Assembly: GCA_014055495.1 (NCBI GenBank)
Contig: WIAG01000009.1
Span: 32,886 to 96,885, forward strand
Direction: 5' to 3'
Source: Nitrospira sp. CR1.2
GTDB lineage: Bacteria; Nitrospirota; Nitrospiria; Nitrospirales; Nitrospiraceae
DNA: 64,000 nucleotides
The notes under the pieces were generated by a model. That model ran no database searches, had not been told where the DNA came from, and saw only the letters and a list, made by a program, of their open reading frames with translations. Made by a program: the position numbers and the translations under genes. Shown here piece after piece: positions 32,544 through 64,000 of the stretch; positions within the stretch are counted from its first letter, which is position 1, and every line of letters starts with the position of its first letter.

Positions 32544-33725
32544 GTGAGCGACATGAGTGAGTCGCCTGGTTCATCTGTATCGGTGGGAGGAATGGTCATG
32601 AATCGTCGTGGGTGGATCGGATCGTCGCTGCTGATGCTGACGGTGATCGGAGTCGGGGTGGGGTTGGGGGTGTGGAAATACGGCAGCATCCAGGACCAAG
32701 CCGCCGCATCGGCCAACCAGCCGGAGCCGATGGAAGTCGTCACCCTTGCGGTGGCGAAGGCGGTGGATCACCACCAAACGTCCACCTCGATCGGGACGGT
32801 CTTGGCCCTCCGCTCCATTACGTTGCGCAATGAATTGGCCGGGACCGTGAGTCAAGTGCGGTTCATTCCGGGCCAGGTTGTCGAGGCCGGCACGGTCTTG
32901 GTTGCGCTCGATGTGTCCGTGGAGGAAGCCGACCTTCGAGCACAGCAGGCCCAAGCGGTGTTGGCGCGCACGGTCCTCGACCGGCGGCGAGCGCTGACGC
33001 AGGACCTGGCTGCGGCACAGGAAGAGGTCGACCGTGCCAGGGCGGATCTCGATGTCGCGCAGGCTCAAATCGCCCGCACGAAAGCCTTGATCGCCCGGAA
33101 GACTATTCGCGCACCGTTTCGTGCCCGGGTCGGCCTGGCCGATGTCCATCCCGGACAGTATCTGAATGAAGGCACGCAACTGACGACCCTGCAGGGCATC
33201 GATGACGCCGTACATATCGACTTTGCGGTGCCGCAGCATGTGGCGGCCGGGTTGCGGCACGGTGATACGGTGGATGTGTATCCGGCCGGTGAGGCTTCGG
33301 CAGTTCAAGCCAAGATCGTGGCGCTGGATGCTCGTATCGACCCCGCGACGCGTAATGCCATGGTCCGTGCCAGGATCGATCGGTCCCCCGCGATGCCGGT
33401 GCCCGGTGCCGCGGTTCGAATCAAGGTGCGAGTGGGGGCGCCACGTAGCGCAGTGGCCATCCCGGTCAATGCGTTGCGGAAGGGACCGGGCGGCGACCAG
33501 GTGTTCGTGATCGGGCCTGACGGACAAGGCAAACCACGCGCGCACCTCCGTCAAGTGGAGAGCGGCGCCATGTCGGGGGATGACATCATCGTGTATGCCG
33601 GGTTGGCCGCAGGCGAGCAGGTGGCGGCATCCGGGGCGTTTAAATTGCGTGACGGTGTGCTCGTCGTGGCCGCCGGCGATCCCGTCGCCACGTCCGATTC
33701 CACCCGTGCTCCGGAACAACCGTGA
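32544..33725 (+). CDS. RND efflux periplasmic adaptor (HlyD/MFP), system 1
   Basis: SITLRNELAGTVSQVRFIPGQVVEAGTVLVALD; coiled coil; KTIRAPFRARVGLADVHPGQYL. Confidence 0.9.
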   Translation: MSDMSESPGSSVSVGGMVMNRRGWIGSSLLMLTVIGVGVGLGVWKYGSIQDQAAASANQPEPMEVVTLAVAKAVDHHQTSTSIGTVLALRSITLRNELAGTVSQVRFIPGQVVEAGTVLVALDVSVEEADLRAQQAQAVLARTVLDRRRALTQDLAAAQEEVDRARADLDVAQAQIARTKALIARKTIRAPFRARVGLADVHPGQYLNEGTQLTTLQGIDDAVHIDFAVPQHVAAGLRHGDTVDVYPAGEASAVQAKIVALDARIDPATRNAMVRARIDRSPAMPVPGAAVRIKVRVGAPRSAVAIPVNALRKGPGGDQVFVIGPDGQGKPRAHLRQVESGAMSGDDIIVYAGLAAGEQVAASGAFKLRDGVLVVAAGDPVATSDSTRAPEQP

Positions 33726-55886: not shown

Positions 55887-57083
55887 TTAACGAAATGTGA
55901 GCAGACTGCTCAGACCTTCGTTTTTAGGTCTGTACGAGTGGGTTTGGAGCAAGCGTGTGTGGACGGATTCGTCGAGAACTTCGGTACTCGTGCCGGTTTG
56001 CATGACTGGTCGATAGAATCGCGAGTGAATCCACTTTCGGAGCCCAACAAAAGACTCACCGAACGAATCGTGAAGTGGACTGAGCGGATCTATTTGCCCC
56101 TGCACCGTGTGTCTATCAATCGCCAGACCGTTTATCGCTGAAATGTGTAACATCCACGCCAGGGGTACATTCGCCAACCCACGATCAGGATAGGTTCCCC
56201 CGAGATCTCCATGTGCTCCGGCGAACCATCGCTGTTCAATCAGTTGACCGGTCCTTGTCGCAGAAGTCCAGAGAGTCGCGTTGTAGTCCGCGCGGTGTTC
56301 ATCAATGGCGAGCGCGTGGTAGGCCCGGCGCACGATAGGGCTGAGCTCGGTATCGTGAAAGTTGTACCGAGGCTCATTCAGCCATCTAAGTGCATTCGTG
56401 GGGATTCCGAGCGGGCCCACCGTGTCCCAGAGTCCGAGAAGTGTGACGGACACACCTTGGAATTCGCGGCGTCTCGAGCCGGCAGTTCTGGAACTGTCGG
56501 TGTCTGGTTGTGCGCTGCGATAGCGTCGATACGCGTCCCCAATGACAGAGCCTGAGGAGTTGAGAAGCAGCTGACCAAGGCAGTCGGTCAAATGAGGCGT
56601 CCCCGCAGTGTTGCTCGAGAATAGGTTTGCGGTATGACGAGTGAGCCTGACCAAGTCTTGGTCCAGAAGGGTAACCGGAGGAAGGCCTACGGACGCGAGC
56701 AGGCCCACAAGGGACCTTACCGTATATGCCCCTCGGCTGAATCCGTAGAGGAAGAGCTCATCGCCCGGTTCGTAGGTCGCGGCCAGATAGGCATAGCTCA
56801 GGAGGATGGTTCTGTCGAGCCCATAGCCGAACGATCCGTCTTGGAATCGATGAAACCACGCCATGTCGGTGCCGGAGTCGTACCACCGCTGTTGCACGAG
56901 CCCAGTCTCTGTCCGCGGAAGAATCGATCGGTAGAGGTGGTACACGTTCGTCCCCTGATGTGAGGGACATTCGGGGCCGGAACGGCGGGTTGTCTCGACA
57001 GCATTTACTGTAGAAGGTCGGATGCCAGGGTCTGGAGGCCGGTGCCATTCGCCATCGACACACAGAATTACGCGTTTGGGCAC
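55887..57083 (-). CDS. DUF2235 (alpha/beta hydrolase-type) protein
   Basis: RVILCVDGEWH, GTNVYHLYRSIL, YDSGTD, LFLYGFSRGAYTVRSLVGLL (GxSxG), QRWFAGAHGDLGG. Confidence 0.85.
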   Translation of the reverse strand: MPKRVILCVDGEWHRPPDPGIRPSTVNAVETTRRSGPECPSHQGTNVYHLYRSILPRTETGLVQQRWYDSGTDMAWFHRFQDGSFGYGLDRTILLSYAYLAATYEPGDELFLYGFSRGAYTVRSLVGLLASVGLPPVTLLDQDLVRLTRHTANLFSSNTAGTPHLTDCLGQLLLNSSGSVIGDAYRRYRSAQPDTDSSRTAGSRRREFQGVSVTLLGLWDTVGPLGIPTNALRWLNEPRYNFHDTELSPIVRRAYHALAIDEHRADYNATLWTSATRTGQLIEQRWFAGAHGDLGGTYPDRGLANVPLAWMLHISAINGLAIDRHTVQGQIDPLSPLHDSFGESFVGLRKWIHSRFYRPVMQTGTSTEVLDESVHTRLLQTHSYRPKNEGLSSLLTFR

Positions 57084-60792: not shown

Positions 60793-60870
60793 GTCCCCAT
60801 CGTCTAGCCTGGCCTAGGACATTGCCCTTTCAAGGCAGTAACACGGGTTCAAATCCCGTTGGGGACACCA
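60793..60870 (+). tRNA. tRNA-Glu (TTC)
   Basis: GTCCCCATCGTCTAGCCTGGCCTAGGACATTGCCCTTTCAAGGCAGTAACACGGGTTCAAATCCCGTTGGGGACACCA; acceptor and T arms pair; anticodon loop CTTTCAA; encoded CCA. Confidence 0.95.
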
Positions 60871-62518
60871 CACAAGGGGTGGTAAGCAGATTCGGTAATA
60901 ACCGCAGATATGAGCCTTTCCCCGTGACCTTGTAGCCTTTTCGTCCGTTTTCCTCAAATGCCTCGCACATCAAGGGCTCTTCCAGAAGTTTCTTTAACAT
61001 CTGACGAGCTTGCGCTTTGTGGCGACCCAGTAAATTTTTTGTATCCTTGACTCGACCTTGAAGATCCCGCTTCAACCGGGCTTCATCGATTGCCACAATT
61101 CCTGCAGGCCTCATGAGCTGATCTAGCTCTTCGATTAACTGCTTTTTTCGCCTTTCTTCTTCCCTCAGCTTGACCAGAAGTGGGTCCATATTCTCCCCTT
61201 TGGCGATCGCGTCGACCAAATTGTTTTCATATGCCTCAATGAGGGACAGCTCTCGCTCCACGAGAGATTTGCGACTGAGCCGAGTCTCATCACCTGATCT
61301 AATCCGAGCAAGGGCCTTTTCGATGGCGGCTTCGGTCAATCGCTCATCAAGCGCCTCACTGATGGCTTGCAGCAAGACGGTATCTAAGACATCTTGCTCG
61401 ACTCGTACTGCGTTCTTGCAGATCGATGCTCCTCGCTTTCTATGATAGGCACAGCCGTAGGTCCGTCGCTTTCCACCATTATCTCTGCCGTAGGCATCGA
61501 TCGGGCCACCGCAACTGCCACACCGAGCCAAACCACTCAGCAGATAAGGGGAATCGAAATCCCGCATCGCCGGACGCCCCAAGAGCTGGCCGCTTTTATC
61601 TGACAATGAGCTTCGCATAAATACGTTCTGGACTTGCTGAAGGCGAGCCTGGACGCGCTGCCACAGGTCAGCCGAGATGATGCGGAGGTCAGGTGCATCC
61701 AATTTTATAAGTTCTGCGCTTCCCCGTCGCCGACGTCGTTTGGTTCCTCCACGCTCGATTTTCTGGTATTCATTCCATACGATTTCGCCTCTGTAGAGTG
61801 GCCGGTACAGCATTTCTCGAATAGCCGAAGGTGCCCAGCCAGCTTTGCTTCGTGGAGACGGTACGCCTTCGGCATTGAGCGTCTTGGCAATACGGGTCAA
61901 TCCAAGTTTAGAAGCATACATTTCAAAGACTCGCCTAATTATCGCGGCTTGGCTTGGGTTGATCACCCGAACCACGTGGAGTCTCTGACCATCACCTGTT
62001 AGTACCTCTCGATTGTCATAGCCATATACGCGGCCTCCGGTGACGTGCCCCGCTTTTGCCTTTCGGAGAAGCGCGTCATAGGTCCGTTGCTTGGCACGTT
62101 CTCTCTCCATTTCTGCGGCAAAATTCGTCAGAGAGAGCATGACCTTTTCAATTGCGCTGTCCAACGTGCGTTCGCGGTCTTCCAAGTAGAAAAATATTCG
62201 GACGCCTGCGTCCGTAATCTGCTTGAGCGCATAGGCGGTTTCGATCTGTTCACGACCAAGGCGCGACTCTTCGGACATGATCAGAACATCGAACGAGGGT
62301 CTGGGCTTGAGCGCATTCATAAGCCTCAGGAAGCCAGGACGCTTGACAAACTCAGCTCCCGAGATGCCATCGTCTACAAAGATGTATTCTTCACCGGCCT
62401 CCCAACCCTTACGCGCGGCATACGCTTTTGCGTGTTCAATTTGCCGGGTGACGGATTTCTCTTCCTCCAGCACCCCGCTCTGTTCCGTGGACTTTCGTGC
62501 ATAGATCGCAGCGATCAT
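60830..62518 (-). CDS. Large serine recombinase (site-specific integrase)
   Basis: IAAIYARKSTEQSG…EEKSVTRQIEHAKAYA, VDDGISGAEFVKRPGF, LIMSEESRLGR, Cys zinc-ribbon ARCGSCGGPIDAYG, coiled coil. Confidence 0.95.
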   Translation of the reverse strand: MIAAIYARKSTEQSGVLEEEKSVTRQIEHAKAYAARKGWEAGEEYIFVDDGISGAEFVKRPGFLRLMNALKPRPSFDVLIMSEESRLGREQIETAYALKQITDAGVRIFFYLEDRERTLDSAIEKVMLSLTNFAAEMERERAKQRTYDALLRKAKAGHVTGGRVYGYDNREVLTGDGQRLHVVRVINPSQAAIIRRVFEMYASKLGLTRIAKTLNAEGVPSPRSKAGWAPSAIREMLYRPLYRGEIVWNEYQKIERGGTKRRRRRGSAELIKLDAPDLRIISADLWQRVQARLQQVQNVFMRSSLSDKSGQLLGRPAMRDFDSPYLLSGLARCGSCGGPIDAYGRDNGGKRRTYGCAYHRKRGASICKNAVRVEQDVLDTVLLQAISEALDERLTEAAIEKALARIRSGDETRLSRKSLVERELSLIEAYENNLVDAIAKGENMDPLLVKLREEERRKKQLIEELDQLMRPAGIVAIDEARLKRDLQGRVKDTKNLLGRHKAQARQMLKKLLEEPLMCEAFEENGRKGYKVTGKGSYLRLLPNLLTTPCVVSPTGFEPVLLP

Positions 62519-62530
62519 AGAGCTACTCCT

Positions 62531-62812
62531 CTAGCTGGGCACGTCGTTTCTCTCATATTCCGAGGGCAGTGATTCCAGTTGTGCAAGCGTCATAGCGCTG
62601 TCCAGGGAATCCGTCAATGAACATTTATGGCCATATCCCGGAGGGGTTTTGGCCATAAACTCGCTATGTGATTGAAGATCCGCGAGAAGTGCCTCCGCAA
62701 GGATTGAAGAAATTTCATCGTGGAGGTGAGTAGGGAGTGTACATTCCTCCATTTCCGGATGGCGTTTCCTCTCCTTTCTTTTGGGCTCCAGTTTCGGTTC
62801 CGCCCGTTCCAT
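62531..62812 (-). CDS. Hypothetical protein upstream of the recombinase
   Basis: 93-aa ORF co-oriented with, and 12 bp from, the recombinase. Confidence 0.45.
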   Translation of the reverse strand: MERAEPKLEPKRKERKRHPEMEECTLPTHLHDEISSILAEALLADLQSHSEFMAKTPPGYGHKCSLTDSLDSAMTLAQLESLPSEYERNDVPS

Positions 62813-63038
62813 CTGAATATTTCCTCCTGAACTGACCCAACCGGGGGACTCTCACGACACCCTCACCCCCAACTGAAATGCCCGCCGTTCCGCCGGCTTA
62901 GGACGAAGAGTGAGCCCCCAATGGGTACGACTCGGGGCTGGGGAGCAGCGGGACAGGCCTTGCTGGTGCCCTCCGTGCCGGTCTCCGCCCCTCCAGGCCT
63001 GCCCGCTGCGAGAGCCCCGTGCCGCCTCCTTCGATTAC

Positions 63039-63070
63039 GCCCCACCCTTTTGGTTGGTGAAGGGTGGGGC
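63039..63070. repeat. Strong stem-loop in mobile-element intergenic region
   Basis: GCCCCACCCTT-TTGGTTGGTG-AAGGGTGGGGC, 11-bp perfect stem. Confidence 0.7.
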
Positions 63071-63098
63071 TAGAACATAATTTCAGAAGGAGGCGGAC

Positions 63099-63602
63099 AT
63101 GTCCGTTGATAGCTCTCTCGGTTCCTCGAACGGTGGACGGCCACTGAGCCCGGTTCGGAAATACGGCATCCCGCGGTACCGTGTCACGCTGGTGCGAGAA
63201 GGTCGTGCCATTCCGGCTGCGGAATCGGTGCATACATCGGAAGGCGCTGCGGCGATTCTCCGGCCGTTGTTTGCCCATCTGGACCGGGAACAATTCCTGA
63301 TCTGTGGTCTTGATGCCAAGCACAAGCTCATTGGTATCAATGTCGTCTCGACTGGTTCGCTCAATCTGACCATCGTCCATCCTCGCGAGGTCTTCAAACC
63401 ACTGATCCTCATGAATGCCGGCGCCTGGATTTGTGCCCACAATCACCCCTCCAGTGACATCACGCCGAGCCCCGAAGACCGCGTCCTGACCAAACGACTG
63501 CGCGAGGCGGCTGATCTGTTCGGCATTCCGCTGCTGGACCATCTCATCCTCGCCGAAGAGCGCTATTACAGCTTTGCCGACCAAGGCTGGCCTGGCGCTT
63601 AG
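63099..63602 (+). CDS. RadC-like JAB-domain protein
   Basis: GLDAKHKLIGINVVSTGSLNLTIVHPREVFKPLILMNAGAWICAHNHPSSDITPSPEDRVLTKRL (HxHPSG-like HNHPSSD). Confidence 0.92.
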   Translation: MSVDSSLGSSNGGRPLSPVRKYGIPRYRVTLVREGRAIPAAESVHTSEGAAAILRPLFAHLDREQFLICGLDAKHKLIGINVVSTGSLNLTIVHPREVFKPLILMNAGAWICAHNHPSSDITPSPEDRVLTKRLREAADLFGIPLLDHLILAEERYYSFADQGWPGA

Positions 63603-63727
63603 CGCAGCAACCGCAATACCCAGGCTGCCCCGGCCGCCACCAGGGCGAGCCCGATCGCTGCCGTCCCCCAGGCGACCAGGTCGACAGCCAGCGCATTGCC
63701 AATGGTGTGAATTTGTTGCGCCGTCAT
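63599..63727 (-). CDS. Small single-TM protein, pVIII-like (coat-like paralog A)
   Basis: MTAQQIHTIGNALAVDLVAWGTAAIGLALVAAGAAWVLRLLR; basic C-terminus. Confidence 0.6.
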   Translation of the reverse strand: MTAQQIHTIGNALAVDLVAWGTAAIGLALVAAGAAWVLRLLR

Positions 63728-63774
63728 GTAGGAACTCCTTTGCCATTTCCTGACCGCCTCGATTGGGAGTAAAG

Positions 63775-63800
63775 GAGGCAGGCTGCTGCCAGCCTGCCTC
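63775..63800 (-). terminator. Hairpin immediately downstream of coat-like gene B
   Basis: GAGGCAGGCTG-CTGC-CAGCCTGCCTC, 11-bp perfect stem, 12 bp after the stop codon; weak CTTTA tail on the minus strand. Confidence 0.6.
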
Positions 63801-63812
63801 GATGGCTTTCTC

Positions 63813-64000
63813 TTAGCCCACAATTGCGCGGACGCGCTTAAAGGCGTAGATCGCCAATGCCACGCCAATCAAGGCCGTGGCCCACAAGAGCAGATCGGCC
63901 CGCACCGTGGCCACATCTGCCGACACCGGAAACAACTGCGCTTGCGACAGCGCCGGGACACCCAAGGCGAATACGAACGCCATGAGCAACCCCCCAAGCC
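63813..64000 (-). CDS. pVIII-like secreted small membrane protein (coat-like paralog B), 5' end possibly outside window
   Basis: Minus strand reads MAFVFALGVPALSQAQLFPVSADVATVRADLLLWATALIGVALAIYAFKRVRAIVG*; open upstream to window edge; not in supplied ORF list. Confidence 0.65.
   Translation of the reverse strand, partial: LGGLLMAFVFALGVPALSQAQLFPVSADVATVRADLLLWATALIGVALAIYAFKRVRAIVG

Follow-up and report, generated by a model that had tools for sequence, protein, structure and literature searches.

Coat genes of a likely inovirus-type prophage at one end of cargo-bearing islands at tRNA genes in Nitrospira

Genes and features at the locus

The window analysed here is the whole 64,000-nucleotide stretch of DNA from Nitrospira sp. 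CR1.2 that corresponds to positions 32886–96885 of contig C50. C50 stops exactly at the end of the window, and it holds nothing past position 64000. The genome holds four full-length occurrences of the last 1 kb of the window, with 84–100% identity, and three of these four copies run on past the window edge.

A tRNA-Glu gene (ttc; 60793–60870, plus strand) was detected with ARAGORN and is recognized as the integration target from empty sites in four relatives. A 22-bp attL core, TGTGGTGTCCCCAACGGGATTT, lies at 60851–60872 on the minus strand, and was identified by a pattern search of the same genome and by comparing the junctions with empty sites. The 3' end of the adjoining gene (60830–62518, minus strand) reads into tRNA-Glu. 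This gene encodes a 562-amino acid serine recombinase with Pfam Resolvase, Recombinase, and zinc-ribbon domains, the predicted integrase, of which an 88% identical relative is found at tRNA-Glu in G006 (L040). Upstream of the recombinase gene is a 93-amino acid ORF (62531–62812, minus strand) without a Pfam match. It co-occurs with the serine recombinase in C125, L040, L042, and L046, and accompanies serine recombinases only; it might be a directionality factor or a regulator.

A conserved non-coding block follows at 62900–63095 (minus strand), as defined by an alignment of 14 copies, and contains a strong hairpin at 63039–63070. The DNA fold z-score for 63025–63095 is -6.1. The function of this block is inferred only, and it is tentatively considered a candidate single-strand origin or packaging signal. 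The next gene (63099–63602) is on the plus strand, opposite to the coat genes described below, and encodes a 167-amino acid RadC/JAB-domain protein (PF04002, E = 5e-40).

Elsewhere in the window, a 398-amino acid ORF (55887–57083, minus strand) resembles by eye the Tle1-like (DUF2235) proteins found in the cargo of island L030.

Two small coat genes under purifying selection

Two small genes occupy the end of the window on the minus strand. The first (63599–63727; ORF 63602–63727, with the stop extending to 63599) encodes a leaderless membrane protein of 42 amino acids, MTAQQIHTIGNALAVDLVAWGTAAIGLALVAAGAAWVLRLLR, that is a paralogue of the coat protein, as supported by pN/pS and a shuffle test. 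The second (63810–63998; ORF 63813–63998) encodes a pVIII-type major coat precursor that is cut off by the contig edge. Complete copies elsewhere in the same genome show that the full-length precursor has 70 amino acids, MKGWGWVKGLGGLLMAFVFALGVPALSQAQLFPVSADVATVRADLLLWATALIGVALAIYAFKRVRAIVG; the 58-amino acid ORF of the window is its tail part, and residues before approximately position 10 fall past the contig end. The precursor consists of a leader ending in S-x-A/Q, with an S-x-A signal-peptidase site, one helix, and a basic tail. Directly 3' of the coat gene is a perfect, terminator-like hairpin, GAGGCAGGCTGCTGCCAGCCTGCCTC in plus-strand reading (63775–63800, minus strand), which is near-identical in 14 copies and has a fold z-score of -3.4.

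The conserved coat precursor was found in approximately 29 copies, and the 42-amino acid protein occurs in 28 of the 147 genomes of the class. Most copies have the same mature coat sequence although their DNA differs. The overall pN/pS of the coat gene, 0.24–0.27, is inflated by one misregistered row (L044), and the value for the 42-amino acid ORF is 0.10 over 29 copies. Because of this low ratio and the constancy of the mature coat protein despite DNA change, neither ORF is a chance frame, and the coat genes are under purifying selection.

A 14-residue block, DL-x2-W-x-TA-x-IG-x-AL, is common to both proteins and scores 48. This score was reached by only one of 5000 full shuffles and by seven of 5000 shuffles restricted to the helix, and the shared block is thus beyond chance expectation. 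The coat protein has no match among the family models of Pfam, PHROG, and NCBIfam, and none was found against phage records.

An earlier sequence-only reading had proposed two adjacent minus-strand genes for small proteins, the shared block, and a leader-bearing pVIII-type precursor as the second product. All three claims held, the second by the shuffle test and the third by the 70-residue sister copies and their S-x-A site, with the amendment that the second gene is cut at the contig edge.

The phage module in sister copies

Sister copies reveal a module whose order, in the direction of the coat genes, begins with an HTH gene, Rep, a Cys-rich small protein, an 87-amino acid SSB-fold protein, and a short membrane peptide. 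There follow genes for a pIII-like protein, an Ace/pVI-like protein, Zot, the coat precursor, the hairpin, and the 42-amino acid paralogue. The module ends with radC on the opposite strand, the non-coding hairpin block, an HTH gene or the 93-amino acid ORF, the integrase, and the tRNA. The order of the Zot, Rep, pVI/Ace-like, SSB-fold, pIII-like, and coat genes is fixed in approximately 30 copies. The copies spanning its position (approximately 30) contain radC, and RadC belongs to the phage module, a membership missed when only the window's letters were read.

The Zot/pI ATPase is well supported by PF05707 (E = 2e-29) and by the PHROG Zot-like family (phrog_197, E = 1e-48); approximately 160 bp separate the end of its gene from the coat gene downstream, and homologues occur in 24 of 101 related genomes. 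Rep is a rolling-circle initiator (PF02486, Rep_trans, E = 5e-37) with a weak G2P-type match (E = 0.001). The Ace/pVI-like protein, encoded between the pIII-like and Zot genes, matches phrog_306 (E = 5e-9) and phrog_974 (E = 4e-8). The SSB-fold protein was modelled with a pLDDT of 91.5 in the best of five models, the others being low, and its top Foldseek matches are SSBs (E approximately 6e-4), from which single-strand binding is inferred. The pIII-like protein, of approximately 422 amino acids, has a leader, a variable middle, a Thr-rich linker, and a hydrophobic C-terminus, and its position fits pIII. It has no family match in Pfam or PHROG, and AlphaFold gave no usable model. The Cys-rich protein, which carries C-x2-C pairs, and the short membrane peptide were recognized by eye. 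No NCBIfam model matches the Zot-like, SSB-fold, pIII-like, or coat protein, and these four are therefore probably annotated as hypothetical. No secretin was recognized among the module's genes, which would make it dependent on a host secretin; CTXphi is known to rely on one.

Several further features of the copies were observed. In the pIII-like alignment, the middle (approximately columns 105–235) is strongly variable and both ends are conserved, as for a receptor-binding part. At the left end of the module, approximately 3.55 kb before the Zot start, six copies (C94, C3, L041, L042, L046, and L056) contain tandem short repeats of the CTGTCCCCTA type, which precede the first HTH gene and are possibly iterons or regulator sites. 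In L032, L040, and L049 radC is split at the same site in three genomes by a 2.1-kb insert (approximately +1.76 to +3.95 kb from the Zot start), which encodes, on the strand opposite to radC, a 503-amino acid reverse transcriptase that by eye resembles group II intron maturases. In L035 and L043 a second element adjoins the first in opposite orientation (approximately +3.9 to +6.2 kb relative to the start of Zot); it has a tyrosine integrase and an HTH gene of its own, and a Rep only approximately 51% identical, and we call it a second inovirus-like lineage.

The window thus likely contains the 3' end (coat genes, RadC, and integrase) of an integrated inovirus-type prophage. The sequence-only reading had suggested an integrated filamentous phage extending beyond 64000, with a Zot-like ATPase within approximately 10 kb as a check. 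C50 itself ends there, and it is the sister copies that support the suggestion and satisfy the check, with Rep found as well and, by place and layout only, the pIII-like protein. Contig C30 was considered as a direct extension of C50. With four Zot and four RadC loci, the locus counts are consistent with this, but the 52-base overlap of the two contigs contains three mismatches. Bases 1–176 of C30 (L010) are the last 176 bases of C3, followed by a jump to the SSB gene; the left end of C30 may be an assembly chimera, or C30 may be another or rearranged copy.

Integration at tRNA genes

Wherever the integrase end of a copy was examined, the integrase adjoins a tRNA. Serine recombinases of type 1 are found at tRNA-Glu and those of type 2 at tRNA-Ala, while tyrosine integrases are found at tRNA-Lys, Phe, Ser, Gly, or Arg. 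The serine recombinase had earlier been taken as part of the element. This held; what had been missed is that it is one of several exchangeable integrases, and most sister copies use others at other tRNAs. L035 and L042 match over 12 kb of cargo and phage core, yet differ in integrase and tRNA, which indicates that the integrase end is exchangeable.

An exact second occurrence of the window's attL core, on contig C27 at approximately position 116358, is its attR. Empty sites in G015, G005, G012, and G017 have the two flanks approximately 240–320 bases apart without the insert, and the junctions were read for G015 and G005. Taken with attL and attR, the empty sites place the window's element in tRNA-Glu, with an att core of 22 bp. 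That the serine recombinase performs insertion into the 3' end of tRNA-Glu is inferred. C27 reaches 2.7 kb into the element and stops in Rhs-like sequence; only both ends of the window's own element are assembled, and its cargo is largely missing from the assembly.

Islands between att sites and their cargo

The prophage appears to be one end of a far larger att-flanked cargo island, which the first reading of the window had missed. In 13 copies the att repeats are 12–35 kb apart. In the long flanks available from other genomes, the repeated tRNA 3' end stands at this distance from the tRNA, beyond the cargo and away from the phage genes. For three tRNA-Ala islands the repeat has just 12–13 bases, and the attR call relies mainly on conserved arm sequence. 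Islands of the same integrase class have conserved sequence immediately inward of attR, which would be expected of integrase arm sites. The left edge of the phage module showed no att repeat in the copies searched, nor did we find a consistent repeat flanking the 6-kb module alone that would represent its own att or a second origin. The module is therefore likely one end of a larger island rather than a free-standing 6–8 kb prophage. Several islands (L034, L031, L046, and C94) hold more than one att-like copy, which shows that some stacking of elements takes place.

Transfer of an entire island is shown for one 29-kb unit. L030 and L031 share 29,260 bp at 99.976% identity, bounded on both sides by the tRNA-Lys att, in two Nitrospira species whose flanks are just 78–80% identical. 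Near-identity up to the att sites within divergent flanks indicates recent transfer of phage and cargo as one piece. G015 is a metagenome assembly and the L030 and L031 genomes possibly come from one community; a misassembly with both of its ends at att is an improbable cause of the identity.

The cargo between the far att and the phage replication genes is changeable and spans 4–28 kb. It often includes anti-phage defence genes, as called by PADLOC matches; no enrichment over the rest of the genome is implied. L034 carries HmaA, HmaB, and HmaC together; C94 a DrmD-like helicase, SIR2, HerA, and a type III methylase; L030 a type IIG enzyme, a PLD-helicase, and AbiU; L040 IetS and a methylase; and L048 a type II system with Vsr, plus a Z1-domain protein. 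The 29-kb unit of L030 and L031 also encodes two proteins with Tle1-like phospholipase domains, and C125 and L042 each contain one ORF of approximately 2,400 amino acids that is Rhs-like by eye. Three very long proteins (906–1487 amino acids) are encoded in the L033 cargo, approximately -16.8 to -6.2 kb from the Zot start.

Proposed mechanism and alternative explanations

We consider it likely that an inovirus-type prophage forms one end of an integrative island that moves from att to att as one piece; that it moves as its own filament is inferred. In this view, the integrase would excise the island as a circle, on which Rep would start rolling-circle synthesis, and the SSB-fold protein would cover the single strand. 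The Zot/pI, coat, and pIII-like proteins would then extrude the DNA in a filament, the length of which would grow with that of the DNA. Infection followed by integration at a tRNA would bring phage and cargo to a new cell. Because the capsid of filamentous phages is not of fixed size, large cargo could be exported without killing the cell. In a bolder reading, the whole excised circle of 12–35 kb, with its cargo, enters a very long filamentous virion. For this reading, in which excision, virion, and single-stranded DNA are all inferred, we would put the chances for and against at about the same.

The alternative that survives best, though we consider it unlikely, is that the island is mobile but travels by another phage or route, and that the inovirus genes serve excision, replication, or another role. 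In its favour, a jumbo phage transduces Pseudomonas islands that encode RadC, an inovirus Gp2-like protein, and defence functions (PMC12595487), and documented inovirus genomes of 5–20 kb (PMC6813254) are below the size of several Nitrospira islands. However, the full set of coat, Zot, and pIII-like genes, in fixed order and under purifying selection, is needless for a passive passenger, and the text of PMC12595487 mentions neither Zot nor coat proteins.

Somewhat less probable still is an ordinary inovirus prophage of approximately 7.5 kb beside older, unrelated defence islands, the long att-to-att distances resulting from stacking and lost internal att sites. Transfer RNA genes are known integration hot spots, and the extra att-like copies in L034, L031, L046, and C94 would fit. 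Against this stand the missing att repeat at the module's left edge in the copies searched, the class-specific conservation of arm sequence within the distant attR, and the 29-kb unit of phage plus cargo transferred whole.

The two small proteins, with their small size and single membrane helix, could suggest a conjugation pilin, a holin, or similar, but these readings, raised earlier as alternatives, are all but excluded by neighbouring genes for Zot, pVI-like, SSB-fold, and Rep proteins. A conjugation cluster with a T4SS had also been named as a finding that would count against a phage. No T4SS or relaxase was found in the L030 island, where nearly all larger ORFs were scanned (other islands were scanned partly), and by the criterion of T4SS plus relaxase an integrative conjugative element was rejected for that island. 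No endolysin was found among the proteins scanned.

Comparison with known systems

The Nitrospira module resembles inoviruses of the Tubulavirales (CTXphi, and Vibrio or Alteromonas phages) in its Zot/pI, rolling-circle Rep, SSB-type protein, Ace/pVI-like protein, pVIII-type coat, and tRNA-linked integrase. The best named Zot relatives are approximately 27–34% identical over part of the protein. In canonical inoviruses the coat gene precedes the pIII and pI genes, which is a usual trait and not a strict requirement, whereas the pVIII-type gene follows Zot in all Nitrospira copies. Other differences are the second, leaderless coat paralogue, the constant RadC on the other strand, the Nitrospira host, and att-to-att units of 12–35 kb compared with the 5–20 kb genomes in the inovirus catalogue (PMC6813254). 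By its tested features the module is of inovirus type, and it departs from known inoviruses in coat position, paired coats, constant RadC, and size.

By analogy, without direct sequence comparison, the closest islands are the Pseudomonas tmRNA islands I23, I44, and I55, which are transferred by a jumbo phage and carry intY at tmRNA, alpA, RadC, an inovirus Gp2-like protein, and defence cargo (PMC12595487). Judged by gene content only, they share with the Nitrospira islands an integrase at an RNA gene, an HTH regulator, RadC, and defence cargo; near-identical copies likewise occur in divergent hosts, and a Rep is present in the Nitrospira islands and an inovirus Gp2-like protein in the Pseudomonas ones. 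In contrast, the Nitrospira islands are found at tRNAs rather than tmRNA and carry a full filamentous morphogenesis set; the text of PMC12595487 is silent on Zot and coat proteins. Pf prophages of Pseudomonas aeruginosa with the KKP module (PMC11341870) are likewise filamentous prophages with anti-phage accessory genes. However, KKP is a small accessory module in another host phylum, while the Nitrospira cargo is exchangeable and spans 4–28 kb.

Queries of IMG/VR with Zot, a Zot alignment, and two hairpin patterns returned nothing; such scans need exact short peptide or DNA matches, and distant relatives can escape them. Among the rows shown for RadC matches in phage records there was no annotated inovirus, and many records are unannotated. 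The open-access literature searched yielded no account of filamentous phages in Nitrospira; this scope leaves out most subscription journals and the supplementary tables of PMC6813254.

Implications

These islands add a filamentous-phage lineage with no close member found in two viral collections at the sensitivity used, and make a link to the Pseudomonas islands with RadC and inovirus Gp2 directly testable. Many genomic islands have no known way to move, and those described here hold an apparently complete filamentous-phage gene set. Whether a single element infects, integrates at a tRNA, and equips its new host with a changeable anti-phage arsenal is a reading we can neither favour nor dismiss. 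If true, Nitrospira, nitrite and ammonia oxidisers of wastewater and soil, would share an exchangeable pool of immune genes.
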